DNA of 40,785 nucleotides, from positions 1 through 40,785 of the IMG/VR virus record IMGVR_UViG_3300029915_000069. One strand, 5' to 3'. The notes below the pieces were generated by a model. That model was not told the origin of the DNA and made no database searches. It saw only the letters and a list, made by a program, of their open reading frames with translations. Every line of letters begins with the position of its first letter. Position 1 is the stretch's first letter. Of this stretch, positions 12,826 through 40,472 are shown piece by piece. The position numbers were made by a program, and so were the translations under genes. This DNA is from a virus.

Positions 12826-12833
12826 TAAGATTG
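12826..12833 (-). promoter_or_regulatory. CAATCTTA octamer before the GIY-YIG/adhesin unit
   Basis: On the minus strand this reads GACAATCTTA, right after the stop of the upstream fibre gene and 26 bases before the GIY-YIG start. It is followed by TGATATATATATAC. It is one of six exact copies before minus-strand transcription units; the role is inferred to be late promoter or leader element. Confidence 0.5.
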
Positions 12834-12840
12834 TCGGCCC

Positions 12841-13890
12841 TTATTGAAATCCGGCAAGTTGCCATGCAACACGATAATTATTCGTATCTACGGGCATATT
12901 CCATTTAACGGTAAAGGTCGTAGTAGTCTTGTTTGTCACAGTAATTGGTTGAAATTGTGGGGTAGCGTCGGTATAATTAGCCAATTCTGCAGTAACTACA
13001 TAACTACTTGAACTCATGGGAACATTTAAAGTAATGGTAGCCGTTACTTCGCCCATAGTTAAAGGAAATTCCCCTACTTGCTCGATTGTACCGGCACCAA
13101 CTAAATAATCGAGTTTGTAATTTGCCGTATCTAGAGGCATATTCCAGGTAGCAGTGAATCCCGTAGTTGTTTTGTTGGTAATTGTAATCGGCTGAAATTC
13201 TGGATCAGGATCAGTAGTATTTACCAATTGTGCGATTACCACATAGGTATTACTGCCTTGAGGAGTAACAAAAGTAACATTTACAGTAGTAGTACCTTGG
13301 CTTAGAGCGACCTCATTAGCTGCTCCGCCTCCGCCACCACCTGATCCGCCTCCACCAACAAATTGAAAAATAGTGCTTTGGGTAATATTTTGAATGGTTC
13401 CAGCATTATTAAAAATTGTAATATATGCAAATGGAAGAGTGCTATTTAAAGGAGTGGGAATTGCTGCATCTGCCGCAATAGCATTAGGAGTACCAGTAGT
13501 AGCAATTAAATTACCACTTTGATCCAGGGATAAAAGAACTTGCATGTACTCATTTGATGGCAAAGTAAGTAATGTAGAGCCCCCAGTTGAAGTCGTAATA
13601 TTTCCACCGCTAGCAGAAGGAAAAGTTACTGTTCCAGAAGCGAAAGCAGGAATAACATTATTAATAAAAGAGATTGATCTATTTCTATTGGATTCAGGAT
13701 TTGAAACAATAGCTGGTCCAATATCTACTACTAGACTTGGAGTGCTTGTTGCATCAACTCTAAGTGGCACAGTAAGATCTGCATTAATTGAAGCAAGTAA
13801 AATATCTAAGGTTTCACCGGCAACATATGGGAATAGTTGCTGGAGGATCCCTCTATACTCTATCTGTCTTGCATCTAACTCGATACTCAT
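12841..13890 (-). CDS. Tail fibre protein with two C-terminal repeat domains
   Basis: A 349-residue fibre or adhesin subunit. The N-terminal 180 residues are a beta domain seen in virion proteins (a helix with QQLFPYVAGETLDILLAS, then strands up to the STIFQFVGGGG stretch). A glycine linker (GGGGSGGGGGG) follows, then two copies of a beta domain of about 75 residues, with cores NTTDPDPEFQPITITNKTTT and NYTDATPQFQPITVTNKTTT, each ending with a WNMP-NY motif. The same domain ends the 1427-residue fibre next door. It follows that gene by 17 bases, with AAGG before its ATG and a TGATATAA box, so it may be co-transcribed or have its own start. A receptor-contact role is inferred. Confidence 0.75.
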   Translation of the reverse strand: MSIELDARQIEYRGILQQLFPYVAGETLDILLASINADLTVPLRVDATSTPSLVVDIGPAIVSNPESNRNRSISFINNVIPAFASGTVTFPSASGGNITTSTGGSTLLTLPSNEYMQVLLSLDQSGNLIATTGTPNAIAADAAIPTPLNSTLPFAYITIFNNAGTIQNITQSTIFQFVGGGGSGGGGGGAANEVALSQGTTTVNVTFVTPQGSNTYVVIAQLVNTTDPDPEFQPITITNKTTTGFTATWNMPLDTANYKLDYLVGAGTIEQVGEFPLTMGEVTATITLNVPMSSSSYVVTAELANYTDATPQFQPITVTNKTTTTFTVKWNMPVDTNNYRVAWQLAGFQ

Positions 13891-13907
13891 ATAAACCTTA
13901 TATCACA

Positions 13908-18191: not shown

Positions 18192-18254
18192 CTTTGGCTC
18201 CAACTATGGTGTGATTAATTTCACCTTATACTTCATATATCATGGAAAATAAAG

Positions 18255-18285: not shown

Positions 18286-18292
18286 GTTATTA

Positions 18293-21034
18293 TTAAGCAA
18301 TTCCCATCATCTGCCCGTTGACAAATATGGTGGTCGTAGTTTCCATCATTCCAACTTTGAAATTGGCATATCCAGAAGTAGAAGGAGGGGTCATAGTAAA
18401 AGTACCAGCAGAAGACAAGTAAGCTGGTTTACCTGCAACTGCAGTACCAGTAAACGCTGTATCTCCTGATCCGAAAGTATAAGTTCCTAATGAAACTACA
18501 TCGATAGGACTTCCTTGGGCAACACCGGCAGCAGAGAATGCGATACCGATAACCCAAAAATTATCTGTAGTATTAGCGTTATCACTAGCTGCGACAACTT
18601 GTCCGGCCACAAATCCTGAATCGCCAGACATTGACATACGAACTGCATAACTGGTGTTAGCTGCGAATGTTTGACCCGCAATGAACATTTGACTAGTAAC
18701 TGGAGAACTTGCAACATATGCAGGAGTTCCAGCACCGCCCATAATAGTAACTTGGTCAAATGCACCAGTCGCTAATTGGGTAGCAGAAACACCGGCAGCC
18801 TTGATTTCAAGGGTCCCACCAGCACCACTTTGATCAAGGGTGACGCCATCAGTAACAGTTCCTAATTTAGAAGCCGTTACTTTACCAGCACCAATAGTCG
18901 TAACACCAGCATTGCTGATGGTTACATCGCCAGTAGGTGTAACTGCTGCTGCAACGTTTGAGCCATTGCCGACAAAAATTTCACCAGAAGCTAATACGGA
19001 AGTAAGTTTGTTGTTGAATGTCGTCCAATCAGTTGATGACAAATAACCGTTTTGAGAGCCGCTCGCTTGCGCTTGAGCGATTGAAGTTCCAGATCCAATA
19101 ACTGCACCTATACCATTGGTAACGATGATGCCATCAGTTCCAACGTCGGTAAGATTACCAAATGTCAGGGCAGATTGTTTATTGTTGAAGGTAGTCCAAT
19201 CAGCAGAATCTAAGGCTCCGTTTGTAGAACCTGATGCTAATGCCAAAGATAGGATTTGACCAGAAAGACTTAGACCATTTGCAGTACCGATTGTGACATC
19301 GCCAGTATTGGTTCCACTTGAACTTCCAGAGAAGTTAGAAGCAGAAATCGCACCAGAGAAGTTAGAGGCTGCTGCAGTAATAGTTCCAGTGAAAGTAGGA
19401 CTTGCACTGAAAACGACGTTTCCGCTACCTGTTGTTCCACTAACAGTTGTTCCTTGGATTTTTGCAACTGTTGCGGCTTCGGATTGTGATCCGCTAGCAG
19501 CACTTGTAGTTACATCACCAGTTAATTGATTAATCGCATTAACTGTTACGGCACCTTGAGATCCGTTAACGCTACTGACACCAGCAGCTGGGGTAACAAG
19601 TACCCATGCTGAACCATTGTAAATAACGAGATCGCCAATTTGGAAATTGGTCATCGAAGGATCGTTTAATCCGCTTACTGGACTTGCATCAGCAGCAGAT
19701 ACCCAATAAGTATAACCAGTAACGCCTGTACCATCTACGAGGGTAGGTGTATTGGTATTTGGATTCCAGTTACCTTTGAACTCCATGAGAGTAGCAGGGA
19801 GTTGGGAAAGAGGAACTTTTCCGCTTCCATCCAAAGAAGCTACGCCAGATGCTGCGCCGACTTCGGATTGAAGAACGTAAGTCGCAGATAATGAAGGAAT
19901 ATCAGCGGCTACTAAAGCTCTAAATGTAGGTTGTGCTGCACTTCCTGAAGCAGGACCGGCGAACACTGCATTCGCGGATTGCGTTTCAAGAGTAATAGCA
20001 AGAGTTCCAGTGCTTGTAACTGGGCTACCACTGATAGAATAGATCGGAGTAGTGCTATCATCAGCAAAAGCAACGCTGGTAACTGTACCGCTAGTCGCTG
20101 GACTTGCCCATGAAGGGGTACCACTACCAGAAACGGTGAGAACTTGGCCAGTAGTACCAATAGCGAGTCTAGATGCAGTATTAGTTGCACTTTCATACTC
20201 GATATCGCCTTTTGTGGTCATTGGGCTTAAAGCATTATATGCTGCAGCAGCCGTTGATTGGCCAGTACCACCGTTTGCAATTGGAAGAATTCCAGATACT
20301 TGGCTAGTAAGAGCAATAGATCCAGATAATTGTGAAGTAGGTAAACTTAATGCTGAAAGAGTCGTTAAAGTTGAATTGGATGTAGCAACTAAACTAGTGG
20401 CAAAACTACCAGCAGTTGTTGTAATGTCACCAGTCAATGCTGGGAAATTTGAAGCCTGGATAGTCCCAGTTAACTGAGAGGTTGGGAGACTTAAACTTGA
20501 CAGAGTAGTCAATGTTGAATTGCTAGTTGCTGTAATGTTTGAAGCAGTACCGGTCGTATTCTGATTTAAAGTAGGAATATCAGCGGCTACAATTGCTCTA
20601 AATGTAGGAGCGCCACTTGATCCATTAGGAGCAGCAAAGAATGTATTGGCAGCCTGACTAGCAAGAACAGCTGTCAAAGTACCACTAGAAGTAATTGGGG
20701 AAACCGTAACCGTGAAAACGCTAGAAGGAAGACTAAGGCCTACGCTGGTAACTGAACCGGCAGAAGCACTGGCCCAACTTAATACGCCTGTTCCATCGTT
20801 GGATAATACGTAACCAGAAGAAGCCGCCTGAGCAGGTGGCAATGTGAGTGTATAGGTACTTGTTACTGCTGAAGCATTGAGAATTACATTTCCCGATGTA
20901 GAGCCATTTAATTCGATATTACCGGATACATCTAAGCCCCCAGCAACGGTTAAGATGTTGTTAGCATTGGAGAAATCGACCGTTCGAGGTACGCCGTTAA
21001 TAAGCGATAAAAGCTTAGATACATAATTTGCCAT
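18293..21034 (-). CDS. Modular tail fibre, paralogue of the 1427-residue fibre
   Basis: A 913-residue fibre. The first 22 residues (MANYVSKLLSLINGVPRTVDFS) match the start of the neighbouring larger fibre and probably anchor to the same attachment site. The shaft has modules with cores SGNVILNASA, TLPPAQAA, IPSLSATYVLQSEVGAASGV and one copy of TGDIEYESATNTASRL, also found in the neighbour, plus shaft segments like NKQSALTFGNLTDVGTDGI. The C-terminal 130 residues (MFIAGQTFAANTSYAVRMSM ... TIFVNGQMMGIA) are the same domain that lies near the N-terminus of the larger fibre. It has AAAGGA before the ATG, a CAATCTTA element 48 bases upstream, and a terminator right after, so it is probably a single-gene unit. 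Confidence 0.85.
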   Translation of the reverse strand: MANYVSKLLSLINGVPRTVDFSNANNILTVAGGLDVSGNIELNGSTSGNVILNASAVTSTYTLTLPPAQAASSGYVLSNDGTGVLSWASASAGSVTSVGLSLPSSVFTVTVSPITSSGTLTAVLASQAANTFFAAPNGSSGAPTFRAIVAADIPTLNQNTTGTASNITATSNSTLTTLSSLSLPTSQLTGTIQASNFPALTGDITTTAGSFATSLVATSNSTLTTLSALSLPTSQLSGSIALTSQVSGILPIANGGTGQSTAAAAYNALSPMTTKGDIEYESATNTASRLAIGTTGQVLTVSGSGTPSWASPATSGTVTSVAFADDSTTPIYSISGSPVTSTGTLAITLETQSANAVFAGPASGSAAQPTFRALVAADIPSLSATYVLQSEVGAASGVASLDGSGKVPLSQLPATLMEFKGNWNPNTNTPTLVDGTGVTGYTYWVSAADASPVSGLNDPSMTNFQIGDLVIYNGSAWVLVTPAAGVSSVNGSQGAVTVNAINQLTGDVTTSAASGSQSEAATVAKIQGTTVSGTTGSGNVVFSASPTFTGTITAAASNFSGAISASNFSGSSSGTNTGDVTIGTANGLSLSGQILSLALASGSTNGALDSADWTTFNNKQSALTFGNLTDVGTDGIIVTNGIGAVIGSGTSIAQAQASGSQNGYLSSTDWTTFNNKLTSVLASGEIFVGNGSNVAAAVTPTGDVTISNAGVTTIGAGKVTASKLGTVTDGVTLDQSGAGGTLEIKAAGVSATQLATGAFDQVTIMGGAGTPAYVASSPVTSQMFIAGQTFAANTSYAVRMSMSGDSGFVAGQVVAASDNANTTDNFWVIGIAFSAAGVAQGSPIDVVSLGTYTFGSGDTAFTGTAVAGKPAYLSSAGTFTMTPPSTSGYANFKVGMMETTTTIFVNGQMMGIA

Positions 21035-21082
21035 TTGTTATATTTCCTTTAAGATAATTTCTCCAGTTTATTTCTATAAATT

Positions 21083-21090
21083 TAAGATTG
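21083..21090 (-). promoter_or_regulatory. CAATCTTA octamer before the 913-residue fibre gene
   Basis: Minus strand ACAATCTTAAATTTATAG, 48 bases before the start codon, in the 114-base gap between fibre genes. This is the longest leader of the six copies. A proper AAAGGA binding site lies further downstream. Confidence 0.5.
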
Positions 21091-21598: not shown

Positions 21599-21599
21599 A

Positions 21600-24539
21600 T
21601 TAGAATACCCACCATTGTCCACCGGATGAAATTAATGATACGGATTGATATTGAAAACCTACCACGAAAGAACTTATATCGTTGATAGTATCTACTCCGC
21701 TTCCTACTATTGTTAGGGCATTTGCAGAACTATCTCCTTTTCGGCAATAAAAAATTCGTCCGGTATTTCCTGCAGCGGGAGGTAGAGTAAAAGTAATTGC
21801 TCCAGAAGTACAGTCAGCCGTTAAAAAACAGTCGCTGGTCAGAATGGTATAATTACCAACCTTAGTTGACACTGCAACTGGACCACCGGCAGCATTGAAG
21901 CCTGCTGGACCTGCGGGACCTGTTGGACCGGCTGGACCTGCGGGACCAACGCCACCGCCTCCACCGCCTCCTCCGCCGCCGCCAAGTCTGAATTCTAAAC
22001 TATCTCCAGCAACTAAGCCGCCTCCTGGCATTGCTAAAATTTCGATTGTGCTACTTGGAGTGTTTGGAGCACCAACTTCTTCGTATGCTCCTGTTTCGAT
22101 ATCTAAAAATTGTCCATTTAAAAATACTTGGAGCGTTCCTTTTCCTACAGTATACTGTGCAGGAATATTTCCTTCTCTTGAATTATTTGGTAAGGTAATG
22201 ATTGAACCATTGGCAACTGGGCCAATAATAGAAGAAGGAGGTGTTGCACCACTTGCAACAACTGAAACTATTTCATCGTATGTTGGAGAATCAAGAGATG
22301 CATATAAATTACCAAACGCTTGGTCGAGTTCTTTGATAGCTAAAGTTAAATTATCGCCATCATGAATTACATAGTTACCAGATCCAGTTCCTACTTGTGT
22401 TGTAGAAACCGCAAAAGGCGTGCCTACATTACCATTACTCGTTGCATTAGCAGTACCGGCAGAAGTATTAGTTACTGTTACAATTCCAACACCTGCTACT
22501 GCACTAAAATTTCCAGATGCTTCGGTATTTAAGACGGTAGCCAATTTTGAGGCAACTGTGGTTGCACTGTCAGCACTAGAAACATCGACTTCTAAATAAG
22601 AATTAACGCCTGCTACTACTGGCTTGCCACCACCGCTATTGACATTAAACCAGACAGCATACTGCATTGCGTTTGCAGAAGAATTAATAAGAAAATATTC
22701 ACCAGTAGTAATTGTAGAGCCTGCACCAACAGTAATGGCCGTAATTTGTGGAATAGAATTTGGATTTACCGAATTAACATACTGAGGTTGAGAAGATGCG
22801 CTTGATGAGGCCCCAATATATTGAAGCAATTCTTTTGAGGTCGTACCGCTAATTTCAACTGATTCTCCATTGTCAAGTTCTTGACCTAAAAATCTAACAT
22901 AGACTCGTGGGCTTCCACCATTGTCCTCGCGTAAAAATAACCAAAACAAATTACCAGAAACCGGTACTGCATTTCGAGCAGCAATATAGATGTTACGATT
23001 GGTAGATGGAGTTGGAGCTGCTGTATAGGTACCAAACGCATATTTTGCTTGTGCGCCACCAATTCCAGTATTGTCGCCAACCACAACATTTGTTTTTAAG
23101 GTCACTGTATACGCATTGTTTACAGTTTCAATCTGGTAATATCCAGCAGATGTATTTGAAGCAACTTTAATGTAGTCGCCAGCTAATAAGCCTGAAGTCC
23201 AAGAAACAGAGCCTACTGAAGTTACGGTAGGGGATCCACCAACAAAAATTAAATTAGGTCCAATCACTACATCCCGTACCAAAGTAATATAGGCTACTTC
23301 ATCGTCGGTAAGAGTGATATCTGCAGAAGAAGGATTTGCAGTTAAACTATATGTCAAAGAAGATCCAATTACTCGAATTTCAATGTCTTGATCCCAGTTA
23401 ATTTGACCTGGAGTAGTGATAACGCTTGGAGAGTAAAAAGTAAGTGAAGCACCGGTAATTGTAAGCGTGGCTTCTTGGCTCATCGTGATAGTTGAACCAG
23501 AAATATTTATGATAGTGGTATTTTGAGGAATTCCTGTACCAAAAATGTAGTCGCCATTTACAAGACCTACTGTAGACGCCAGGGTCGAAATCGTGTTGTT
23601 ACCCGTGGAGATATTCCCTGAAGTCCCAAGGACAGGATCTGAATTTGGCAGGATACCATTTGAAATCTCTCCAGATCCGGTAACAACAGTATTACCTAGA
23701 TCTTGAAAAATACTTTGAAGGGAAGGAGGCGCTCCTCCTCCAGATGGCCCAGAGAACCAATATGGAGTTCCTTTGATCTCCAAAAGGGTAGTCATTATGG
23801 CATTTTCCCAATCCTTAGCACATGTAAGTTGCTTATCGCCACCACTAAATGGATCTACTGAATTTGAAGTAGTAGTAACTGGAGCCTGATTTCTACCTGC
23901 TGCCCAAGGGTACATATAACTTGGATTTGGATTGAGTCCACCTGTCTCAAGGCTATAAAGCATCCAACGGCAATCAGAGATGGAAGTAACATTACCATTT
24001 GAGTCGGTAGTTACTATAGCAATAGGGAGCACATTAATCGCCCATACTGAAGTTGTAATGTAAAGTTTGAAAGTTAATGTTTGTGCCGCAGGAGCGATTG
24101 TAGTGATCTCGTTGATTGCAGCAGCACTCCAAATATATTTAGTTTCATCTGTTGACGAATCTGCAAATCTATTGTAATCTATACCTACGTAATTAGTGGA
24201 ATTTGGAGCAAAAGATCCAGATACATTCGTATTCGTAGCAGCGTTCAGTACTTGATTTGGAGTACCTGTAGGAGTTTGAAAAATGGTCCCTGAGACAGAA
24301 GCATTGATGTTTATTACGCTACCCGGATCCACTACTAATTGGAGTCCGTTTGCAGGAGCTCCGATTGCTCCAGAGACTAAGATATTGAATCCACGAACGA
24401 TGTACCCTTGGGTCGTATTCGTCCAAAGAGCGGTTACCATCGTATCAAAATCGTTACGAACCCCAGATTCTATCCGTCTGGCATCGCTAATGTTATAACG
24501 CTGTTCGCTTAATAGATTTGAGGTAGTTAATATGGCCAT
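21600..24539 (-). CDS. Large tail/baseplate-associated fibre with collagen-like segment
   Basis: A 979-residue virion protein. The N-terminal 200 residues are a structural domain (MAILTTSNLLSEQRYNISDA ... ISDCRWMLYSLETGG) of the type linking baseplate and fibre. The middle has a FGTGIPQNTTIINI module (about 330) and a QYAVWFNVNSGGG domain (about 600-700) shared with two baseplate proteins. Near 855-885 there is a poly-Gly run, then a collagen-like stretch of five Gly-x-y triplets rich in GPA. The C-terminal 90 residues (VAVSTKVGNYTILTSDCFLTA ... GGQWWVF) form a beta domain common at fibre tips. It has AAGGA before the ATG and a CAATCTTA element 18 bases upstream. The exact virion position is inferred only. 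Confidence 0.8.
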   Translation of the reverse strand: MAILTTSNLLSEQRYNISDARRIESGVRNDFDTMVTALWTNTTQGYIVRGFNILVSGAIGAPANGLQLVVDPGSVININASVSGTIFQTPTGTPNQVLNAATNTNVSGSFAPNSTNYVGIDYNRFADSSTDETKYIWSAAAINEITTIAPAAQTLTFKLYITTSVWAINVLPIAIVTTDSNGNVTSISDCRWMLYSLETGGLNPNPSYMYPWAAGRNQAPVTTTSNSVDPFSGGDKQLTCAKDWENAIMTTLLEIKGTPYWFSGPSGGGAPPSLQSIFQDLGNTVVTGSGEISNGILPNSDPVLGTSGNISTGNNTISTLASTVGLVNGDYIFGTGIPQNTTIINISGSTITMSQEATLTITGASLTFYSPSVITTPGQINWDQDIEIRVIGSSLTYSLTANPSSADITLTDDEVAYITLVRDVVIGPNLIFVGGSPTVTSVGSVSWTSGLLAGDYIKVASNTSAGYYQIETVNNAYTVTLKTNVVVGDNTGIGGAQAKYAFGTYTAAPTPSTNRNIYIAARNAVPVSGNLFWLFLREDNGGSPRVYVRFLGQELDNGESVEISGTTSKELLQYIGASSSASSQPQYVNSVNPNSIPQITAITVGAGSTITTGEYFLINSSANAMQYAVWFNVNSGGGKPVVAGVNSYLEVDVSSADSATTVASKLATVLNTEASGNFSAVAGVGIVTVTNTSAGTANATSNGNVGTPFAVSTTQVGTGSGNYVIHDGDNLTLAIKELDQAFGNLYASLDSPTYDEIVSVVASGATPPSSIIGPVANGSIITLPNNSREGNIPAQYTVGKGTLQVFLNGQFLDIETGAYEEVGAPNTPSSTIEILAMPGGGLVAGDSLEFRLGGGGGGGGGGGVGPAGPAGPTGPAGPAGFNAAGGPVAVSTKVGNYTILTSDCFLTADCTSGAITFTLPPAAGNTGRIFYCRKGDSSANALTIVGSGVDTINDISSFVVGFQYQSVSLISSGGQWWVF

Positions 24540-24557: not shown

Positions 24558-24599
24558 TAAGATTGTCATTAAGGTTATATCGTATTAACTTGAATCTTA
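24558..24599. promoter_or_regulatory. Two-way CAATCTTA/GAATCTTA element
   Basis: An inverted pair in the divergent gap: CAATCTTA on the minus strand (24558-24565), 18 bases before the 979-residue gene, and GAATCTTA on the plus strand (24592-24599), 27 bases before the zinc-ribbon gene. Seven bases of each arm are exactly complementary. This placement supports a promoter or leader function in both directions. Confidence 0.55.
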
Positions 24600-26047: not shown

Positions 26048-26055
26048 TAAGATTG
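26048..26055 (-). promoter_or_regulatory. CAATCTTA octamer before the 250-residue gene
   Basis: Minus strand GCAATCTTAAGTAGATATG, with only 7 bases between the octamer and the ATG. There is no purine-rich binding site, so either translation is leaderless-like or the octamer itself is near the 5' end of the message. Confidence 0.5.
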
Positions 26056-26071: not shown

Positions 26072-26112
26072 TTGTCAAATGCCTATATGTCAGGTATTAT
26101 ATGTTATGGAGG
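26072..26112 (+). promoter_or_regulatory. sigma70-type promoter and GGAGG site for the endolysin operon
   Basis: TTGTCA (26072-26077), 17 bases, TATTAT (26095-26100): each box has 5 of 6 consensus bases at ideal spacing. GGAGG (26108-26112) lies 6 bases before the ATG at 26119. This is the strongest host-type promoter in the window. Confidence 0.75.
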
Positions 26113-30577: not shown

Positions 30578-30578
30578 A

Positions 30579-33500
30579 TTATGAGCCTATCAAAGAAACC
30601 GAAATATCTGAAATTTGATTTGCAATGAAAGCTTTCTCGCCAGTTACTAACTGAATCTCATCTGAAGCAACTGTGTAGGCAGGATTTGTGATCACAACAG
30701 ATATAACTCCAGGAATTGCTCTAACTGCTTCAACGATGGAAGACAAATCGATACTTTGACCTAACGGATTAGATTGAATGAGGGCATATACAGTAGACTG
30801 AATTTGGCTAGTAATTTGCGCAAAAGACACGCCGATATTTGTCCTGATTGCAAGAGAAATCTGAATATTCTTTAAAAGCGGTTCTCTAATGAAAATATCT
30901 GTTCCTGCGGCATTTACACCAGGATAAGTAATAGAGTCTCTTGGATCTCCATAAATAACCCTGTTTGCTTCTCCAATAAGACCTATATCGAAATTGTAAC
31001 TATCGATACCACTTCTAAAAGTTGTTGGAAAGTTTAATTTACCTAAAGATGTGAGCCCTACATTTGCAGATAAATTAATTTTATCGTATTGTGCAGAAGT
31101 ATTAAGCACAATATTGTTAAAATTAGTTGTTCCAGGCTGAGGAGAAATATACGCAACTTGTTTGTATCCAGTATAAACTTTTCCTTCTTGCACAGACAAA
31201 GAAACTGAATTTGTGGATAGATTGGTATTGTATTGCGTAGAAACAACACCGGCAATAATTGCCGTAGTTGGACTTAGAACTTCAAGGATTTCATAGGTTC
31301 CAGCATTTCCTGTACCTAAAACCGATCCATTAATTACTAACTTATCGCCAGGAATAGTTGCGTCATATTGGAAAAATTGGATTTGCGGTCTACTTACAGA
31401 GAAGGTAACCGCAGACATGCTAGATTGATTAACGGCTTCTGGACTAATTACGGTTAAGAACGATTCTTGCCCTGTTTGAGTAACAACAAAACTGAAAGCT
31501 GCTGGCATCGATACATCAACAGGAGAGTTAGTAGCAGCAGAAACAGTATTGGTAGCCGTAACAACATTAGATGCAACAGATACGTTTATTGCAGTCAGAT
31601 GTCCGTTAAGGGCATTGTATAATTCGTTTGCTACAGTAGTAGAGGAATCGGAAGCGTTAATGGTTACTTCGATGCCAGTAAACCCAACAGGTGCTGGATC
31701 AGTATTACTTCCACCAGAAACATTAAACCAAACATAGTATTGGTTAGAATTTCCACCATTATAGAGTTCAAAATAATCAGCAGCGCCAGAAGAAGAAAAT
31801 GTACTACCGGCTGGCATAGTGAATTGAGTAATTTGTACCTGTGAAGGTCCAGAATTTGTAACCATGAAACTGCCTTGGTTATCGATATTAAATCCAGTTC
31901 CAAAAGTAACAACATCTCCTGGTAATACGTTTTGTAAATTAGGAGGTGTTCCAGTCCCTGTCCAGACCAATTCTTGTGTGCCTAAAGAGGTGACTACATT
32001 GAATACGGATGTTGAGTCATAACCAGTAGAAATTGGATTAACTACGCAAGTAATTTCTTCTTCTATTGCATTATCATTTTCGTACCAGATACTGTTGTTA
32101 AACATTCTGATAACTCTATAAGTTCCTTGATTTAAAGGAGAGAAAGGAGAGGCAAGAATTACGCTATCTCCTTCTGAAACAGAAGAAGTTGAAGTAAAGG
32201 CTCCTGCAGCAATTGCAGTACCACTCTCAGCCACTGCATTTGGATTAGATACAGTAAAAGAATTTCCTGTAAGACCTTCTACAAAGAAAGTACCATTATT
32301 GCCTGCATTGGCAGCGCCAGTAACAGTAACTAAATCGCCGATTGATAACTCAGAAAAATTTGTATTTCCAGATGCAACGGTATATGTTCCAGTAGCGGAT
32401 ACATTTAGGGTCCATCCTCCAGAATCATTAAAATTTAAATTTGTACTAAAATTAGGAGATGATCCAACACCATTCCAACTCAAACAAGCAAGGGATCCTT
32501 GCTTTTCAATTCTGAAAGTGTCACCCTCTACCCTTACATAATTTCTTGGGCTACCAAAGTAAAGTTGATCCGCTGTTTGGTTTTCCAAAATAACGGTTGA
32601 TTCGCCAGAAATTGGGGTATTGCTTAAAACAGTAACGCTCGTATTAGACGAGAAACCGGTATTCTTATTTTGATAATTTTGTGCCGCTGCTCTAAACCAT
32701 TGATCGCTCGCCACAGCTTGACTTGCGATACTATTGGCAGAGAATATCATTTCGTTATTGCCTAACAACTCTCCAGAAGTAAGAACTGGCACAACATACT
32801 CATTACCGCTTCCGCCCACAATTTGAATTGATCCTACAGATCCAACTGTATTGGTTGCTAATTGGAGATGCGTACCTCTATCAGAAACTTCAACATTTCC
32901 TACGGTAGTAAAGCCAGTTACTGCCAAAATAGACCAGAATTTCTGTACTTGATCCATTGTGGTTGGGACTAATACCACTGTGTCTCCGGCATTAAAAGAA
33001 TATCCTGTATCGCTTGGATAGGTTAACGGTTTTTTAAAGGTAAACTGAGGAGTTACACCAATAGAAGAGTAAGCGATTGTTGTGTCTCCTACTCCACTTC
33101 CACTTACTTTAGTAAGCACTCCAGATGCTGGCGGAGTACCGATTGATCCAGTGGTGGTAAGGGATGTTCCAGCACTAATAGAAGATGTGACCGTAAAATA
33201 TTGTAATTGATTATTACTATTGAAAGTTGTATATACTGCTCCTACAGTAGCATTCGCAGCACCAACAGCAAATACATACTGACCATCATTGGCAATCCAG
33301 TTAATCCCGTCTTTCAAGAAATAAAATGGGATCGTGAATCCACTATCTTCATAGGTACTTAACACAATAATACCTGAACCAGAAGTTCCGCCATCATTCA
33401 CGATTGTAGTCGTAAAATAATTAGACAAATTTGCGTTCACATAAGTATTAATTTGGGCTGCAGTAGTTGGAGATGATTGGTAAAAATAAATACCATTCAA

Positions 33501-36500
33501 AACACTGGTCGTAACATTGGTTTGAGCAACTGCAACTCCGTCAGGTCTTTGCACTGTAAATGAAGTTGAGGTTGGCGCAAATCCTGCAGCAGTTGAGATC
33601 CTGAAAGTTCCAGTATTATTTACATTAAATCCAGTAGAAGGCAATATCGTTACATATTCTCCACCAGACAAAGTAAGTGCTGGAGATGTACCGGTTCCAC
33701 TAAAGGAAAATGAAGAGAAAGTAATGGTGGTATCACCTGTACCACTAGTTTTCGTTAATGTTCCAGAAGCGGGAGGCGCCCCATTAGATCCGGTAGAAAC
33801 TAAAGTTGTGCCGCCAGCTATCGTAGTAGTTACAGTAAAGTTTTGGCCGTTGCTACTTACATATGTGGCACCTGCAGTTGCGTTTGCAGAACTAACAGTA
33901 AAGGTATATTGGCCTGCCCAATTATATGTTACTTGATCGATTCCTGCTGTAGGAGTGTTTGGAGTTATAGTAACATTCCATTTCGTATTCGAGGAAATAT
34001 TTGTTGTAATTGGATTTCCAGAAGCCAAACTAATTTGTACACTTACATTGTTTGCTGAAGTAACTGAGATACTAGAATTAATAGCCTGATTAGCCGAACT
34101 TGGATAGACATAAGAAACATTTATATACTCCCCGCTTGCTCCCCAAGCAGTAGATCTATAAAGAAGAGCTGTTTGGGTGTTTGATCCTTGCAATACATAT
34201 TTTGCTTGCAATAACGCTTTAAAGTTTGAAAAGTCAAACCCAGTGAAATTGGTAGAAAAGCTAGCAGTTGGTCCAGTTGCGGTGTCGTATGCATTAAAAC
34301 TGTAATTGTTTATTGCGTATGTGCTATTTACTAACGCATTTCTATAAAGAGGAAGAGTATAGGTCTCACCAAGGGTATTATTGTCTACAATTACAACTAC
34401 AGAATCGTTATATCCAAAATCCAAAGGATTTGCTATATAAAATCTGTCTGCCACTCTTAATCTACGAACATCTGGGTATTCTGGTAGGATTGTAATGGCA
34501 CTTCCAGCCGTTTCTGACATCTGAACGGTTTCACCGGAAGGCTGTTCATCATCAAGAATGGTTCCTGGAACTATTCCGTATGGGTTTAGGAATTGAATTA
34601 GTTCATTAGGGTCAAAAGAAGATACCGAAATAGCTGAAGAGAAATTGGTTACATAGGTGTCAATCGGTTCAGCATATGAATCAGAACTGATTGTTGAATG
34701 AAAAAACAAAGGAAGTTCTGCTTGGGCAGACTGAGTCTCATAATATGCAATTAATGCACTTTGACTTACACTATTAAGTCCGCTCTTGAAGTTTAAAAGA
34801 GATCCGGCAGTATCAGAAGTAACTACAGTAATTTGTCCATTTAAGTCATCAGAATTCGAAGTAATGGTAATGTTAGTATTGTCAATAATATTAAATTGTA
34901 ATTGATCGGTTTGAGTTTGTAGTTCAATAGCAATTGCATTCAGTGTTTTGGTTCCTGCTTGAACTCTAAATTTTTGCGGAACATTGCTGGTTCTTACGAC
35001 AGCAAAGCCAGAAATATAAGAATTATTTGCAGAAGCAGAAGCTATAGCGTATTCTGCTGCGGTAACTTTAATATCTAAAGTGCTACCAGTGTTTGCATGA
35101 ACTCTTCCTTCGAGTTGATCCCCAGACGGTACTTGAGGAGACCAAACAATTACATAGTCTCCCGGTAATACATTTGAGAATGCGGAAGAAGAATTACTTG
35201 TATACCTAACAGTATTTGAGCCTACAAGTGTTACCGACAAGAGAGATCCCGAAATAATAGTCGGTATAAGAACTGCATTTGTATCAATTGAAATCCATAT
35301 GTGGGCATCTGACGAAAGCGTTAAGGAGCCTGAAGAAATGGCTGAAGATTCGATATTGGCTTGGGTAACTGGAGTTCCTGCAGACAGAGAATCTCCCGCA
35401 ACTAATGCTGTTACTAATTCAATTTGGGCTGTGTTTCTATCTAATATATAATCCGATGCTACCCCTTTAGAGAAAAGATCGCTAATGCTGATGACGCCTT
35501 TTGCAATTAAAGAAGTGGGATTTGATGCTGGAGTACTCACTACCAACAGAGTGCCGCCACTAATAGTAACGCCTACGGTAAATGTAGCGCCATTATTGGT
35601 ATAAGTGGCTCCAGCAGTAGCGTTTGTACTGGATACTGTAAAGGCATATTGCCCATCAGATAATTGTAAGAAAGTAGAATAACTAATTGATGCGTCTCCA
35701 CTTCCACTTACTTTAGTAAGCACCCCAGGACCTGTAATTGGGGTGTACAGAGTATTAACGATATTAATCTGAGCTCTATCAATTGCTCCTAAGTTACTGG
35801 TAATTTCAATTGTAGATCCCACAATAGATGCGGTGATGCCGGAAACTACGCTATTTAGAACATTTACCCAAGATTGTAGGCTGTTTGAATAGGAAAGGGT
35901 CGTATAGGTTCCTTCAGCAACAAAGTCGGCATCCGTTAAAGTATAAGTAATAGGGCTCGTTCCATCAACTCCAATACTTAAAGTTTCTCCAGAAGCTAGA
36001 GTAGGAGACCAAAGACTTTGTTCTTGTGTAAAAATTGATGCAGTAGACCCATCTTCTGTTAGGAGTTTACCGTTCTTGTAAAGCCTTAAGGTTTCTGCTA
36101 TTTGTGAAGGGAATTCCAAAACAGAGTTTGCATCTGTTACAGAAGAACTTGCGGGAGTTGTGACCTGAATCTTATTTGTGACTTCATCTTCTGGTCTGAT
36201 AACTACATATGTTCCGCCACCAGCAGTTACTGCCTCAAAATTAAGTAGTGTATCTGCATTTATGCTTGCGCATACTTCATATGCAGTTGCACTACCAGGA
36301 TTCGCGAAATCGGTAGATGCAAAAGTGTGTTCGTAAGTAATATTACCAACAACAACCGTAAGTACCTCACCGCCAGATAAAGCAAAAGGTTCTAGCGCTA
36401 CAGTTTGAAGGAAAGCCTTGGTTACAGAAGTTTGTTCTCCGCCAGTAACCAATTGAAAAAATTTCTCTCCACCTAAAGCTGAGTTTACGATGGTCTCAAT

Positions 36501-37751
36501 GGCAACACCGGTATGGGTTGCTTCTAATCCAGCCCCATTATCAATATAGACAGTAGTATTTGTAGCCGAATTCAATACGTCCGTACTTACAATTGTGTCT
36601 GATCCAGTTGGGTCTTGGACTCCTTGAAGAGCGGATTCAATTGCGGTAACGGTACCTAGACCGGTAGAAGCTAAAGCATTCTTGATGTTGATTCTTAATT
36701 CGTCATCTGTTTCAGTATCTAGCCCTGTAGTAATACCAAGCGGATTTGTTACAAAGGCATTTGGAAGACCGGTAGGATTCCCAGAAAATTCAGAGATTGC
36801 ACCTGCAGGAACATTCGCTGCGGATCCCGGTAAGACGGCGACGATTGGAATATTGGTTACAGTCGTTTCTCCATCTAAAATAATTCCACTTTGGGTTACA
36901 GAATATTGAATATCTGGAGTTGTTCCAATTCCTGGACTAATTACTATAGTGTTTACTGGTACGGTTCTAACGCCACCTTGGGAAAGAATCACTGTCTCGC
37001 TGATATTATGAAATTTTGTAGTTGGACTATCTAATGTTATTTCCCAAAAACTTCCAATTTGAACTGGTGGGGCCTTATAAGTAAATGCAGTACCATTGGT
37101 CGATGCCGTATTGCTGATATGGATCTGACTTGAAGAGTCAATAGAAGAAATTGTTGTTCCAGTTGGGATTCCGGCTCCAAAGACAGTAAATCCTACTAGT
37201 AAATTGGCCGTAGAAGGGATTCCTGAAATAATATTGGACGCTATAGAACTAACTCCAGTAAATCCAGTAGAGTTCGCTCCATAAGAAATGGGACCTTCTA
37301 CGTTAACACTTCCTCGACCGATATAAATTGCGCCTGTGGCAGGAAAGGAAGAGGCATTACTTACAAAAATAGTGGTAGAGCCAGCGATTGGGGGATTCGC
37401 TCCTGCATAAATTAGAGTAGATATTTTTTGAAAAGAAAGATCGGTAACTGTTACGAAACTCGTAGCAGCGGAAGCTCCAACAACCGGAACATTGAATTCG
37501 GCGGCCAAATTCTTTAAAGCTGGTCCAGTAGCACGATCTAGGTTGTAATCTCTTAAAATCTGGAATATGTCCCCACTTGCACGGGCTACCATAAGAGCAA
37601 CAACTTTAAAGAAACTTACGTTTGCCGACCCAATGTTTAGATCGTTGATCCCCAATGCAGACGCATAACTACTCGATGATTGACCAAGTAAGTCTTCATA
37701 GGACTGGGGCTGTGGTAAAGACGAACTTGGGGGAGTTGGGCTAGTTGCCAT
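30579..37751 (-). CDS. Giant baseplate J/gp6-like wedge protein
   Basis: A 2390-residue baseplate protein. The N-terminus (SYEDLLGQSSSSYASALG ... RDYNLDRATGPALKNLAAEF ... EVNFPATGAIYIG-type sheet) and the C-terminal 110 residues (ISLAIRTNIGVSFAQITSQI, then LSSIVEAVRAIPGVISVVIT) match the J/gp6/XkdT wedge family, usually 300-700 residues. Between them are many inserted beta modules: GLDTETDDELRINIKNALAS with an ALQGVQDPTG stretch (a J-family core), three copies of DGQYxFTVSSxNATAGATY (near 700, 1280, 1490) each linked to a GVLTKVSGSGDxTI strand, and the VWFNV domain near 2000. It has AGAGG before the ATG and a CAATCTTA element 19 bases upstream. It leads the operon with the next two genes. Confidence 0.85.
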   Translation of the reverse strand: MATSPTPPSSSLPQPQSYEDLLGQSSSSYASALGINDLNIGSANVSFFKVVALMVARASGDIFQILRDYNLDRATGPALKNLAAEFNVPVVGASAATSFVTVTDLSFQKISTLIYAGANPPIAGSTTIFVSNASSFPATGAIYIGRGSVNVEGPISYGANSTGFTGVSSIASNIISGIPSTANLLVGFTVFGAGIPTGTTISSIDSSSQIHISNTASTNGTAFTYKAPPVQIGSFWEITLDSPTTKFHNISETVILSQGGVRTVPVNTIVISPGIGTTPDIQYSVTQSGIILDGETTVTNIPIVAVLPGSAANVPAGAISEFSGNPTGLPNAFVTNPLGITTGLDTETDDELRINIKNALASTGLGTVTAIESALQGVQDPTGSDTIVSTDVLNSATNTTVYIDNGAGLEATHTGVAIETIVNSALGGEKFFQLVTGGEQTSVTKAFLQTVALEPFALSGGEVLTVVVGNITYEHTFASTDFANPGSATAYEVCASINADTLLNFEAVTAGGGTYVVIRPEDEVTNKIQVTTPASSSVTDANSVLEFPSQIAETLRLYKNGKLLTEDGSTASIFTQEQSLWSPTLASGETLSIGVDGTSPITYTLTDADFVAEGTYTTLSYSNSLQSWVNVLNSVVSGITASIVGSTIEITSNLGAIDRAQINIVNTLYTPITGPGVLTKVSGSGDASISYSTFLQLSDGQYAFTVSSTNATAGATYTNNGATFTVGVTISGGTLLVVSTPASNPTSLIAKGVISISDLFSKGVASDYILDRNTAQIELVTALVAGDSLSAGTPVTQANIESSAISSGSLTLSSDAHIWISIDTNAVLIPTIISGSLLSVTLVGSNTVRYTSNSSSAFSNVLPGDYVIVWSPQVPSGDQLEGRVHANTGSTLDIKVTAAEYAIASASANNSYISGFAVVRTSNVPQKFRVQAGTKTLNAIAIELQTQTDQLQFNIIDNTNITITSNSDDLNGQITVVTSDTAGSLLNFKSGLNSVSQSALIAYYETQSAQAELPLFFHSTISSDSYAEPIDTYVTNFSSAISVSSFDPNELIQFLNPYGIVPGTILDDEQPSGETVQMSETAGSAITILPEYPDVRRLRVADRFYIANPLDFGYNDSVVVIVDNNTLGETYTLPLYRNALVNSTYAINNYSFNAYDTATGPTASFSTNFTGFDFSNFKALLQAKYVLQGSNTQTALLYRSTAWGASGEYINVSYVYPSSANQAINSSISVTSANNVSVQISLASGNPITTNISSNTKWNVTITPNTPTAGIDQVTYNWAGQYTFTVSSANATAGATYVSSNGQNFTVTTTIAGGTTLVSTGSNGAPPASGTLTKTSGTGDTTITFSSFSFSGTGTSPALTLSGGEYVTILPSTGFNVNNTGTFRISTAAGFAPTSTSFTVQRPDGVAVAQTNVTTSVLNGIYFYQSSPTTAAQINTYVNANLSNYFTTTIVNDGGTSGSGIIVLSTYEDSGFTIPFYFLKDGINWIANDGQYVFAVGAANATVGAVYTTFNSNNQLQYFTVTSSISAGTSLTTTGSIGTPPASGVLTKVSGSGVGDTTIAYSSIGVTPQFTFKKPLTYPSDTGYSFNAGDTVVLVPTTMDQVQKFWSILAVTGFTTVGNVEVSDRGTHLQLATNTVGSVGSIQIVGGSGNEYVVPVLTSGELLGNNEMIFSANSIASQAVASDQWFRAAAQNYQNKNTGFSSNTSVTVLSNTPISGESTVILENQTADQLYFGSPRNYVRVEGDTFRIEKQGSLACLSWNGVGSSPNFSTNLNFNDSGGWTLNVSATGTYTVASGNTNFSELSIGDLVTVTGAANAGNNGTFFVEGLTGNSFTVSNPNAVAESGTAIAAGAFTSTSSVSEGDSVILASPFSPLNQGTYRVIRMFNNSIWYENDNAIEEEITCVVNPISTGYDSTSVFNVVTSLGTQELVWTGTGTPPNLQNVLPGDVVTFGTGFNIDNQGSFMVTNSGPSQVQITQFTMPAGSTFSSSGAADYFELYNGGNSNQYYVWFNVSGGSNTDPAPVGFTGIEVTINASDSSTTVANELYNALNGHLTAINVSVASNVVTATNTVSAATNSPVDVSMPAAFSFVVTQTGQESFLTVISPEAVNQSSMSAVTFSVSRPQIQFFQYDATIPGDKLVINGSVLGTGNAGTYEILEVLSPTTAIIAGVVSTQYNTNLSTNSVSLSVQEGKVYTGYKQVAYISPQPGTTNFNNIVLNTSAQYDKINLSANVGLTSLGKLNFPTTFRSGIDSYNFDIGLIGEANRVIYGDPRDSITYPGVNAAGTDIFIREPLLKNIQISLAIRTNIGVSFAQITSQIQSTVYALIQSNPLGQSIDLSSIVEAVRAIPGVISVVITNPAYTVASDEIQLVTGEKAFIANQISDISVSLIGS
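31693..31754. repeat. 62-base exact repeat, copy 2 (in 2390-residue gene)
   Basis: Identical to 29334-29395. It lies near residue 2000 of the giant wedge protein, in the matching VWFNV domain. The flanking DNA of the two domains is similar but not identical. Confidence 0.9.
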
Positions 37752-37770
37752 TTAAAAACCTCTTATACAG

Positions 37771-37778
37771 TAAGATTG
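37771..37778 (-). promoter_or_regulatory. CAATCTTA octamer before the baseplate operon
   Basis: Minus strand CTCAATCTTACTGTATAAG, 19 bases before the giant wedge gene. A GATATAAT box lies about 25 bases further upstream and could be a -10 element; the octamer would then be in the leader. Confidence 0.5.
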
Positions 37779-37828
37779 AGGGTATGTAAGTCCTCGTATA
37801 TATTATATCGCCAGAAAATTCTTAAAAT

Positions 37829-40459
37829 CTAATTAGTTGTAGGTAAAGTAAAAGCAACCGGAAAAACCCCTTGAATTCCGGCTAGTTGAACCAATAGATT
37901 AATTCCCAAACTAGGTCCATTTAATGTGACCTGTAATCCGTCAACTGCGGAGAACCTTGGGTCTGCGGTAACCATATTTACGATTTGTTTGTAAATATCG
38001 GAAGCCGTTATGTCGGATACAGCCGTACCTGGCTTAACACCTAGCCCAAACGTAGGATCTGTTAAGGAAGTACCCAATTGTGTGCCGAATTTGATGTTTA
38101 ATGCCTGTATAAGGTTGGTAATACCGGCAGCAAGCCTAAAATCACCTGTATTGGTCGTAGCAAGGTCCCCAGATGGGTCGAGTAACCAATCAACCTTACT
38201 TAATCCAACCAAATTGACGTTGGCTACGCTTGAAGGAATAGAAATCTGGTCATAGGCCGGAGTCTGCAAGTCACTAGGTACAAAAATAACATTTTGGCTA
38301 TTCACCGTTCCTGGCAAATATGCTTGTATGTATGCGCTATCAGCAATCGTATAGTTGTCCAAATTAGATAAGCCGTCCAAAGTTAATAGAAAGCTAGTTT
38401 GTGAAAGAGGGACAATATCCAAAATTGTCCTAGCGGTAGGAGATTGCGTACTAGAATTTAAATAAATTGTTTGTCCGACAAACAAGTCTTGGCTAGCACC
38501 TATTACAATATTTCTACCATTTGCATTTGACAATAAGGAGTATTGAAATCCATTCTCGTCAATATAGGGCTCTCTTAATTCATTCAGGGTCACAATCTCA
38601 AGCCACCGTTGCGAATCTCCCAAATATCTTTGAGCAATTTGCTCAACATTTAATCCAAATGGGACTGGGACTTGGATTTTAGAATTCGATATAGAAAATT
38701 CAATGCCTGAAGTAGCGGCCAATGCATTCACGTACTGCATGTTATTTAATATTTGGTCGTTATCTAATTGATTGGTTGCAGTCAACAAATCATAAGACTC
38801 CACTAAAGCATAGAAGGTTTGTAGTATATCGAACTCGTCAAGAGTCATTGGTTGCGTTCTTACTAATGGAGGCGGTTGATTGAAAAGGGTACTATAGTAA
38901 GAATTTCCTGCACCAAATGAATTTGATAATTGAGTACAAAGAGTCAAAATAGTATTTCTCATATTTTGCAAGTCCTGTACCGTAAAGTCATTTACTGTAT
39001 CAAGTTCTGTTTGGAGCGCATTTTGTTGAGCATTATTTAAACTCAAACTGTTCACTGGTACCTGACTCATCAGCATAGGATACTGTAGCGGACTAGAAAA
39101 AACATTGTTTGATGGATTTAAGGTTGAAGAAACAGTTGCAGAATTTCCGAGTTGCCCATTGGCAACAGCAGAAGAGGAAAGCCCTTCATTTGTCTGATTT
39201 AATTGCTGAATTTGAGACAATTTTTGGGTTGTTACTGAATCCGTGGCTGCATTTCCAGTTAGATTATTTATATTTAAAGTAGCCAAAAAATTAGAAACTG
39301 TACTTTTTGCATCCCCAACAAGTTGTGATGGTAAGTCAGAAACTGCCAAAGCTACTCCTGCTAGTTGCTTTACAAGAATTCCTGTTTGTCTTATGATATT
39401 CAGAACGCTGTCAACATCTGAACGCACTGCACCAATTAAATTATACGCTGCCGCTGCAGTATTTTGAGCCGCACTTATAGTGTTTAATATTTTTTGTAGA
39501 ATGCCAGGACTGAGTGGCGTAACTTGAAGAGCATTAAGTCCCGGTTCTTGATTTAAATTAATTCTTCGCCAAGCCTTCAATTGCAAAGTATAGTCAATTT
39601 CTAGTGGGTGATTTACGCTTTCTTCCCAGTTAAAATTGATTGGGGTGACTACGAAGGATTGATTCTGTTTAACAATATCGAAAACTAATCTCCAACCAGC
39701 ATTGGCGGGATTTCTTTTGCCTTCTTCATACTGTTCTAAAAATTGCTGAAGCATTATGGTCTGGTAATATCCCGTACCAAAACCTTCGGCTTCTGGATCG
39801 CTTCCATTTAATTGTTCTTGTGGATTGGTATTGTCTGGTCTATAATTTATTGGTTTAGCAGCGTTTGATCCTGTAGTTATATTGTTTATGACAGATGTAA
39901 ACTGAGTGGCTACATTTTGAGCAGCTTGAATCGTATTACCAAAGATAGATTGTAATACACCTGGTGTCCCAGGCTGAGGTACAATAGAAGGTCTTCCAGG
40001 CCAAACACCAAAGGTTCCTTTAATGGAAATGTTTTTAAAACGAACACCTGAATGTTCTTCCAAAACGCCTCTTAGGGTAGCCGAAAGATTGATGGCAAAT
40101 TGATCCGTAATAGATAGTTGCTGAGGAGTAATGGGCAATCTAAATTCCCAAGAAGAATCCATGGGAATAAAGGCAAGAGTTCCATTACCGAGTGGTTCAA
40201 TATTTATTTCTTGGGGTTCATCTCCACCTACAACCTTATTTCCATTGAAGGTATCTATTACGATAAGTCGATAATAGGCAAGTTTATCCCAAAGATTTGG
40301 GTTAGGTTGCAATTGTGGGAAAAAAGCACTTGAAACCGAAGTCCAGGGAAAGGGAGAGTTTTGGAATGCATATGATTGTACTCCCCCAGAAATAGTAAGG
40401 GGGCTCAAATTAGATGAACCAAAATTCAATGAGTTAGTATCGGCGACTCCAAATGGCAT
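37829..40459 (-). CDS. Fused LysM baseplate protein and gp25-like wedge domain
   Basis: An 876-residue baseplate protein that looks like a fusion. Residues 60-310 resemble the N-terminus of XkdP-type tail proteins (FRLPITPQQLSITDQFAINL, ISIKGTFGVWPGRP, and IDYTLQLKAWRRINL). A helical linker follows (about 320-560). At 605-675 lies a LysM-like domain (VPFGLNVEQIAQRYLGDSQRW ... LNELREPYI), as in T4 gp53. The C-terminal 105 residues (LIQALNIKFGTQLG, DPTFGLG, VTADPRFSAVDGLQVTL) follow the gp25 family pattern, where gp25 is normally a separate protein of about 130 residues. No ribosome binding site precedes the ATG; a CAATCTTA element lies 5 bases before it. Confidence 0.8.
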   Translation of the reverse strand: MPFGVADTNSLNFGSSNLSPLTISGGVQSYAFQNSPFPWTSVSSAFFPQLQPNPNLWDKLAYYRLIVIDTFNGNKVVGGDEPQEINIEPLGNGTLAFIPMDSSWEFRLPITPQQLSITDQFAINLSATLRGVLEEHSGVRFKNISIKGTFGVWPGRPSIVPQPGTPGVLQSIFGNTIQAAQNVATQFTSVINNITTGSNAAKPINYRPDNTNPQEQLNGSDPEAEGFGTGYYQTIMLQQFLEQYEEGKRNPANAGWRLVFDIVKQNQSFVVTPINFNWEESVNHPLEIDYTLQLKAWRRINLNQEPGLNALQVTPLSPGILQKILNTISAAQNTAAAAYNLIGAVRSDVDSVLNIIRQTGILVKQLAGVALAVSDLPSQLVGDAKSTVSNFLATLNINNLTGNAATDSVTTQKLSQIQQLNQTNEGLSSSAVANGQLGNSATVSSTLNPSNNVFSSPLQYPMLMSQVPVNSLSLNNAQQNALQTELDTVNDFTVQDLQNMRNTILTLCTQLSNSFGAGNSYYSTLFNQPPPLVRTQPMTLDEFDILQTFYALVESYDLLTATNQLDNDQILNNMQYVNALAATSGIEFSISNSKIQVPVPFGLNVEQIAQRYLGDSQRWLEIVTLNELREPYIDENGFQYSLLSNANGRNIVIGASQDLFVGQTIYLNSSTQSPTARTILDIVPLSQTSFLLTLDGLSNLDNYTIADSAYIQAYLPGTVNSQNVIFVPSDLQTPAYDQISIPSSVANVNLVGLSKVDWLLDPSGDLATTNTGDFRLAAGITNLIQALNIKFGTQLGTSLTDPTFGLGVKPGTAVSDITASDIYKQIVNMVTADPRFSAVDGLQVTLNGPSLGINLLVQLAGIQGVFPVAFTLPTTN

Positions 40460-40464
40460 AAATA

Positions 40465-40472
40465 TAAGATTG
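40465..40472 (-). promoter_or_regulatory. CAATCTTA octamer before the 876-residue gene
   Basis: Minus strand GACAATCTTATATTTATG: the octamer ends 5 bases before the start codon, the shortest spacing of the six copies. There is no Shine-Dalgarno site. Confidence 0.5.

Follow-up and report, generated by a model that had tools for sequence, protein, structure and literature searches.

A conserved octamer ahead of late genes as the probable core of a late promoter in a group of large phages that includes Myxococcus phage Mx1

Host sigma-70 promoters of the extended -10 type carry the sequence TGnTATAAT, in which A at -11 and T at -7 are key sigma-70 contacts. The late promoters of phage T4, as set out in an excerpt of PMC2988020, consist of an eight-base element at the -10 position that starts from -13 and lacks a -35 partner; they precede late genes and are read by a phage sigma factor without a sigma-4 domain. 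According to an excerpt of PMC5312081, phiKZ and AR9 use short late promoter words that are read by phage multisubunit RNA polymerases, with AACA-6N-TA/G as the late word of AR9 and leaders of 26-491 nucleotides (nt) in that phage. Here we describe an octamer, CAATCTTA, in a virus contig of 40,785 bases (the window, meaning the whole stretch of DNA analysed) that is identical at 40785/40785 bases to positions 55806-96590 of the 114-kb virus contig G006. We consider it likely that the octamer forms the core of late promoters, occupies positions -13 to -6 and is read by a phage sigma factor that lacks region 4.2.

A preliminary description of this DNA had placed CAATCTTA at six sites on the minus strand, 5-48 bases before the first gene of a unit and outside genes, and all of this held: the copies lie at 12826-12833, 21083-21090, 24558-24565, 26048-26055, 37771-37778 and 40465-40472, none is on the plus strand, the next minus-strand start codon follows the end of the octamer by 26, 48, 18, 7, 19 and 5 nt in coordinate order, and called genes contain 0 of the 6. 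Its estimate of 0.6 chance copies per strand compares with an average of 2.40 copies in dinucleotide shuffles of the window, 7 of 100 of which held six or more. Copy number alone is weak and not significant in the window; the positions are significant. Within 60 nt upstream of a same-strand called start codon, our definition of upstream (sites further off were not counted as such), lie 2.2% of window positions and 6/6 copies, an arrangement with a chance of ~1e-10, and among all octamers in the window CAATCTTA has the most such upstream copies. Five of the six occupy gaps of at least 41 nt between genes; for the remaining copy, ahead of the first minus-strand gene, the window contains no upstream neighbour. 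No copy precedes the six minus-strand genes of the window that have gaps of 1-28 nt.

A search for relatives of the window's baseplate hub gene gave 23 distinct loci in IMG/VR, including six that lie on contigs of 151-176 kb, and Myxococcus phage Mx1 was the only annotated phage to match the hub (30%) and the baseplate J protein; the window belongs to a group of large phages of which Mx1 is the only annotated relative found. Word counts were made in three sets. The first seven genomes were Mx1 and six IMG/VR contigs among the longest of 20 records (G006, G007, G008, G015, G018 and G020); G005, which overlaps G006 with identical octamer contexts, was omitted from later counts. Eight further genomes out of 14 records (G021, G022, G023, G024, G025, G027, G028 and G029), chosen because they hold the sigma factor described below, completed a 15-genome set of 36-63% GC. 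Five contigs fetched last (G017, G019, G009, G026 and G030, the last two chosen through the sigma factor) formed a hold-out set, and G031, G032 and G002 enter the initial record counts only. The gene caller was retrained after its first version missed many plus-strand window genes, and unconstrained expectation-maximization motif finding, which for most of the seven genomes settled on words that were weaker or had nothing to do with the octamer, was replaced by word counts and single-base changes.

The count across the larger genome and its relatives that the preliminary description had proposed gave a 17.6-fold upstream enrichment of CAATCTTA in the first seven genomes (58 of 88 copies upstream and 30 elsewhere, with 3.7% of positions upstream), and the enrichment was replicated in the 15 genomes and the hold-out. 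In the seven genomes any single change inside AATCTT reduced it to 2.0-fold or less. The first base was enriched in the order C (17.6-fold), T (11.2), G (6.2) and A (1.4), and the last was best as A, followed by T (7.4), G (3.4) and C (3.0). The consensus is thus [C/T/G]AATCTT, in which the AATCTT core is invariant and A or T usually comes next. Across the 15 genomes, 291/1389 copies of [CTG]AATCTT were upstream, compared with 43 on average and 91 at most for 59 permuted cores, and 43 stood exactly 5 nt before a start codon, compared with at most 2 for permuted cores. The corresponding hold-out values were 64/291 upstream (permuted mean 9.7, maximum 27) and 10 at 5 nt (permuted words at most 5), and in T4, the control, 8/136 copies were upstream and none was at 5 nt. 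Flanks vary by genome: CAATCTTA prevails in the window's group and TAATCTTT in G021, whose high-ranking words include TAATCTT and AATCTTT and where CAATCTT is scarce; G027 has TAATCTTT and CAATCTTT, and GC-rich genomes show a mixture. Exact-octamer counts were biased between the strands in most large records of the initial 20 (G005, 0/13; G007, 12/2; G008, 4/17; G018, 2/11; G020, 1/11). A chance repeat, inflated by the reading of one 40-kb window, would fit the 7 of 100 shuffles that reach six copies, but the positional test in the window, the 15 genomes and the five held-back contigs all count against chance, and we give this explanation next to no weight.

Literature searches of limited reach found no description of this promoter, and promoters are not discussed in the Mx1 genome announcement. 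The AATCTT in an excerpt of PMC5587285 belongs to a sigma-70 consensus. In Mx1, TAGATCAA, AGATCAAC and AGATCCGC are also enriched upstream of starts and are possibly another regulatory signal of that phage.

The distance from octamer to start codon falls into preferred classes. Among 146 sites in the first seven genomes, 3 were at -1 to 2 nt, 19 at 5, 4 at 6, 6 at 7-9, 0 at 10-13 and 114 at 14-59 nt; among 145 in the next eight, 3 were at 0-1, 24 at 5, 18 at 6-9, 6 at 10-13 and 94 at 14-55 nt; and among 64 in the hold-out, 12 were below 5, 10 at 5, 1 at 6-9, 2 at 10-13 and 39 at 14 nt or more. A Shine-Dalgarno (SD)-like core followed the octamer in 7/43 sites at 5 nt, 11/28 at 6-9, 4/6 at 10-13, 117/128 at 14-30 and 56/80 at 31-60 nt (5 nt versus 14-30 nt, Fisher 2.5e-20). 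Three of the 5-nt cases in Mx1 (36563, 75289 and 121405) use starts annotated by others. The existence of two distance classes, one at 5 nt mostly without SD and one at 14 nt or more mostly with it, therefore points to a transcription start at the sixth base after the octamer; in the 5-nt class +1 would be the A of ATG, and therefore the octamer would lie at -13 to -6 and AATCTT at -12 to -7. On the basis of these start-codon distances, transcription very probably starts at or next to the sixth base, an assignment that we held slightly more firmly before the hold-out. The predicted +1 was a purine, above its neighbours, in 94/114 leadered sites of the first seven genomes (p 2.6e-6). No position from -60 to -18 exceeded 0.07 bit in a composition scan of those genomes for a -35 signal, and the bases just upstream of the octamer, -17 to -14, carried a weak 0.06-0.18 bit. 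Together with the gene distribution given below, the counts show that the octamer is conserved among these phages, follows gene orientation, favours late genes, keeps a preferred register and has no -35.

The preliminary description had also offered a conserved 5' leader element. Such an element, or an RNA-processing signal such as a translation enhancer or nuclease site, would sit upstream of start codons on the coding strand just as the octamer does, and it gains from the fact that the +1 purine preference was not repeated in later genomes (see below). It is disfavoured by start-codon distances that range from 5 nt to the 60-nt limit, with no room for an ordinary leader at 5 nt; by the excess at exactly 5 nt (43 sites, versus no more than 2 for permuted words); and by the hub gene. 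The hub octamer stands at 5 nt in the window's virus, G028, G024, G025 and Mx1, in some of these with no SD following, and at 6-7 nt in G023 and G022; in G008, G007, G018, G020 and G015 the distance is 16-26 nt and an SD is present. We regard a leader or processing element as improbable and the octamer as almost certainly a promoter.

To see which genes carry the motif, we grouped orthologs by reciprocal best hits and searched within 80 nt of the starts of the 114 groups present in at least 5 of the 15 genomes; 72 of these groups had no motif at all. It preceded a 141-aa protein in 14/15 genomes, the baseplate hub in 13/14, baseplate J in 11/14, the prohead protease in 10/14, a 457-aa protein encoded between terminase and portal in 12/13, and the 980-aa protein of the window's gene 21600-24539 in 12/13 (at 18 nt in G006). 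The motif was absent before PolIII alpha (0/15), RecA (0/13), SSB (0/14) and GroEL (0/15), and the recombination endonuclease and sigma groups also had none. In Mx1 it precedes 15/86 annotated plus-strand coding sequences and 0/143 called minus-strand genes (Fisher 1.8e-7); most of its annotated virion genes are on the plus strand and most replication genes on the minus strand, although, for example, a capsid decoration protein is encoded on the minus strand and thymidylate synthase on the plus. PHROG searches with recurrent unnamed late proteins returned no family. Of the six copies that the preliminary description placed before late-type units, the one at 12826 heads a homing endonuclease gene and not a structural one. 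In Mx1, G022, G023, G024 and G029 an inverted pair, AAGATTG...CAATCT, was noticed by eye around a T-rich stretch upstream of the small gene preceding the major capsid cluster; it partly matches the late word.

Replication-linked signals can give strand-biased short words, and a DNA-level signal for recombination, packaging or an origin might lie between genes by chance. The octamer, however, follows gene orientation, including plus-strand copies that precede plus-strand genes in G006 and G018, and keeps its preferred 5-nt register to the start codon, which makes a signal of that kind highly improbable.

The candidate reader of the promoter is a protein encoded by the phages themselves. The annotation of Mx1 includes a putative sigma factor (gene 2071-3078), and phmmer with this protein gave one match in each of G006, G007, G008, G015, G018 and G020 and none in the fragments G005 and the window. 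In the hold-out, phmmer found the protein in G009 and G017 and not in the 62-kb G019. All eight contigs longer than 100 kb that were found through the hub gene, and not through sigma, carry it (the six above, G009 and G017), and within the 15-genome set it was found by phmmer in 14 genomes and by tblastn in G025. IMG/VR yielded 77 distinct loci, and species genomes five, on four contigs of one Deltaproteobacteria metagenome-assembled genome (MAG) and in one Saprospiraceae MAG. The four loci of the former, bog_1112 (L170, L171, L173 and L174), have distinct copies; several related phages were probably binned there.

This sigma is ~335-350 aa long, with identities among phages down to about 32%, and its profile matches region 2 of RpoD (RpoD chains, best E 6.3e-5). 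An AlphaFold2 model (mean pLDDT 82.9, pTM 0.63, weak at residues 285-307) aligned domain by domain over residues 14-345 with E. coli sigma-70 residues 95-566, a stretch that we take to span regions 1.2 to 4.1 (Z 13.0; root-mean-square deviation 11.6 over 286 residues); helical proteins may reach such a Z by chance, although the fold matches listed are sigma factors and the sequence agrees. Tryptophan occurs at only two positions of the aligned stretch 188-235, and sigma-70 has a conserved tryptophan pair near the corresponding region. In E. coli numbering the model ends at residue 566, and 55/55 aligned members stop no more than 17 residues past the matched end. A tail of this length is too short for region 4.2, the -35 reader, and the phage sigma is predicted from sequence and model to end before that region. 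Comparison of the 55 sequences with T4 gp55 by hhalign gave a probability of 0.5% and no profile match, the PHROG matches differ (351 for the phage sigma, 234 for gp55), and gp55 was not among the listed fold matches of the model, which excludes nothing. By the sequence tests made, the protein does not appear to belong to the gp55 family.

The preliminary description had seen in the octamer a possible part of a late promoter that a phage polymerase or sigma factor would read. The sigma form is supported by the predicted -13 to -6 position, the late bias in 15 genomes and the conserved sigma without region 4.2. A multisubunit RNA polymerase of the phage's own is not supported as the reader: the beta-prime domain PF00623 matched 0/17 records and 14/14 control genomes. 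A pattern check of the called proteins for a phage RNA polymerase gave no match. The single-subunit polymerase domain PF00940 also matched 0/17 records, but none of the controls either. From co-occurrence and fit, the octamer is very likely read by the truncated phage sigma.

In 39 loci of the window's clade, the genes around sigma have TGATATA upstream 80 times (2.2 expected) and AATCTTA 7 times (2.3 expected); TGATATA rather than AATCTTA is what one would look for there, because the factor is expected to be made before the late phase. The 15 genomes have 110 copies of TGATATA within 80 nt of starts, 105 of them in G006, G007, G008, G015, G018, G020 and G028, and the end of the word lies 7-10 nt from the start codon in 31 cases and 17-20 nt in 20. 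If +1 is placed at the ATG, the 8-nt class has the geometry of an extended -10, with TG at -15/-14, and TGATATA may mark a class of promoters that this clade uses earlier and in part without a leader. In the window, copies precede the genes that start at 18191, 13890 and 12799.

With more than one promoter class to share out in that clade, the octamer might instead be read by an alternative host sigma, or by host sigma-70 remodelled by another phage protein, with the phage sigma serving a different class of genes; the phage sigma is tied to the octamer by co-occurrence and fit, which leaves room for such an arrangement. Against it, the AATCTT core is kept across 36-63% GC and across sigma identities down to ~32%, presumably in different hosts; a sigma without region 4.2 goes with promoters without a -35; and TGATATA fits the ordinary extended -10 geometry of sigma-70. 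We therefore consider a host-encoded reader unlikely and prefer the phage sigma.

Under the preferred reading, a phage-encoded protein of the sigma-70 family, made before the late phase, would bind host core RNA polymerase through region 2 and open DNA at AATCTT instead of at TATAAT; as it stops short of region 4.2, it would not need a -35 box. Some sites would have their transcription start at the A of ATG and yield leaderless late mRNAs; at others the start would be followed by a leader with an SD site. Since the heads of late units each carry the octamer, one factor could switch on many virion genes together.

Several observations weigh against this reading. The link between sigma and octamer consists of co-occurrence and the missing region 4.2; Pfam Sigma70_r2 reaches its cut-off in 0/17 records, and NCBIfam sigma models match 8/8 members below their cut-offs. 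The eight later genomes, G026 and G030 were chosen because sigma is present, and for them the motif alone is evidence. Not all copies are upstream: 1098/1389 [CTG]AATCTT copies in the 15 genomes do not precede a called start. Exact CAATCTTA ranks 17th in G008 and 37th in G015 among upstream octamers, and CAATCTT ranks 86th in G027 and has fewer than four copies in G021. G017 shows no strand bias of the octamer (3 and 1, control 3 and 3) and, with some shorter contigs, no exact-octamer excess over control in the first count. The register is imperfect, with 3/146 and 3/145 sites at -1 to 2 nt and 6/145 at 10-13 nt, and G030 supplies ten of the hold-out sites below 5 nt, seven at 4 nt and three at 0-1 nt. 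The gene caller rewards starts with ATG and an SD-like core, which favours SD in the leadered classes and not in the 5-nt class. In the next eight genomes the preference for a purine at +1 failed to recur (68/94, p 0.16), and the hold-out value (27/39) is within the range of neighbouring positions. Among genes, RNR alpha (1/12) and RNase H (1/9) have the motif, and many virion genes are without their own copy (major capsid 0/14, terminase 1/14, portal 2/14, sheath 3/14); these four presumably rely on read-through. The window has an exception of its own, the minus-strand gene 13908-18191, which has a 101-nt gap and no CAATCTTA. As a separate observation, distances in G030 peak at 4 nt (7 sites) besides 5 nt (4 sites), a one-base shift either of the register or of the start-codon calls.

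Applied to the window, the register gives the following minus-strand units. The octamer at 40465..40472 has its predicted start at 40459, the A of the ATG of the baseplate hub/assembly protein gene (37829..40459; PHROG 975 baseplate protein, 6.8e-19; Mx1 baseplate assembly protein, 30%), which at 5 nt would be leaderless. The copy at 37771..37778, with a predicted start at ~37765 (±1; the sixth base is T), heads the unit 37751-28197 with its baseplate J-like/wedge protein gene (30579..37751; PHROG 6 baseplate wedge, 7.8e-18; Mx1 baseplate J-like protein, 37% over 44% of the query). That at 26048..26055 (predicted start ~26042) would leave a leader of ~2 nt before the gene of a 250-aa protein (25288..26040), which has no assigned function and no PHROG or Pfam match. 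The copy at 24558..24565 (predicted start ~24552) heads genes 24539-21600 and 21598-21149, the first being the conserved late gene of the 980-aa group (21600..24539), likewise without assigned function or PHROG or Pfam match. Back to back with it, on the plus strand, is a variant octamer, GAATCTTA (24592..24599), 27 nt before the plus-strand gene 24627-25022, whose ortholog group has the motif in 7/9 genomes. The copy at 21083..21090 (predicted start ~21077) heads a tail or minor tail protein gene (18293..21034; PHROG 31460, 1e-24; PHROG 13892, 2.3e-19), and that at 12826..12833 (predicted start ~12820) a free-standing homing endonuclease gene (12260..12799; PHROG 314, 9.1e-30). This last octamer is abutted by the extended -10-like TGATATA, such that two promoter-like words overlap at 12819-12833; close octamer/TGATATA pairs also occur in G006 and G018. 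Elsewhere in the window, a sigma-70-like pair, TTGTCA-17-TATTAT, was seen by eye on the plus strand at 26072-26100, before the transglycosylase gene at 26119; it lies near the minus-strand octamer at 26048-26055 and would make a compact divergent early/late pair. The window has no tRNA genes, and its helicase-like plus-strand gene 1103-2275 has no relative in the phage collection.

If correct, these assignments give a transcription start code for a group of large, almost unstudied phages and predict the late genes, with their 5' ends, of Mx1, whose host is the model bacterium Myxococcus xanthus. The phage protein, as a natural sigma that lacks region 4.2, would be useful for asking how the remaining sigma selects and opens promoters, and orthologous genes that switch between leaderless and leadered forms under one promoter are directly testable.

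Among known systems, phiKZ and AR9 resemble the phages studied here in having a short late promoter word, and differ in that beta-prime was not found here in 17 records. Host extended -10 promoters share with the octamer promoters the dispensable -35, a hexamer at -12 to -7, and A at -11 and T at -7 as in TATAAT, whereas AATCTT differs from TATAAT at -12, -9 and -8 and TG is absent. The preliminary description, which saw no match to sigma70 boxes, was thus right about the word, although the word sits at the -10 position and keeps these two bases. The closest likeness is to T4 late promoters, which work with gp55, with the co-activator gp33 on the beta flap and with the sliding clamp gp45: an octamer at -13 to -6 (here predicted from distances), no -35, a sigma without a sigma-4 domain, and late genes. 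The differences are several. The word is [CTG]AATCTTW and not the T4 late box TATAAATA, as the preliminary description had noted; T4 has 21/32 copies of TATAAATA upstream, all at least 13 nt from called starts and none at 5 nt; gp55 has 185 aa, whereas the sigma here has ~335-350 and a model that aligns with sigma-70 from region 1.2 to 4.1; and a beta-type clamp was not found (PF02768 in 0/15 records and 11/14 controls; gp45-type clamps were not searched). The late system works like that of T4, yet it is distinct from the gp55 family by the tests made. We see an even chance that it represents an independent invention of the T4 late strategy, in which a one-piece sigma-70 derivative that naturally ends ahead of region 4.2 and uses AATCTT instead of TATAAT as its -10 code has been kept throughout a group of phages that differ widely in base composition. 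It would be coupled to late mRNAs that lack a leader and begin at the start codon itself, with promoter and translation start as one element.

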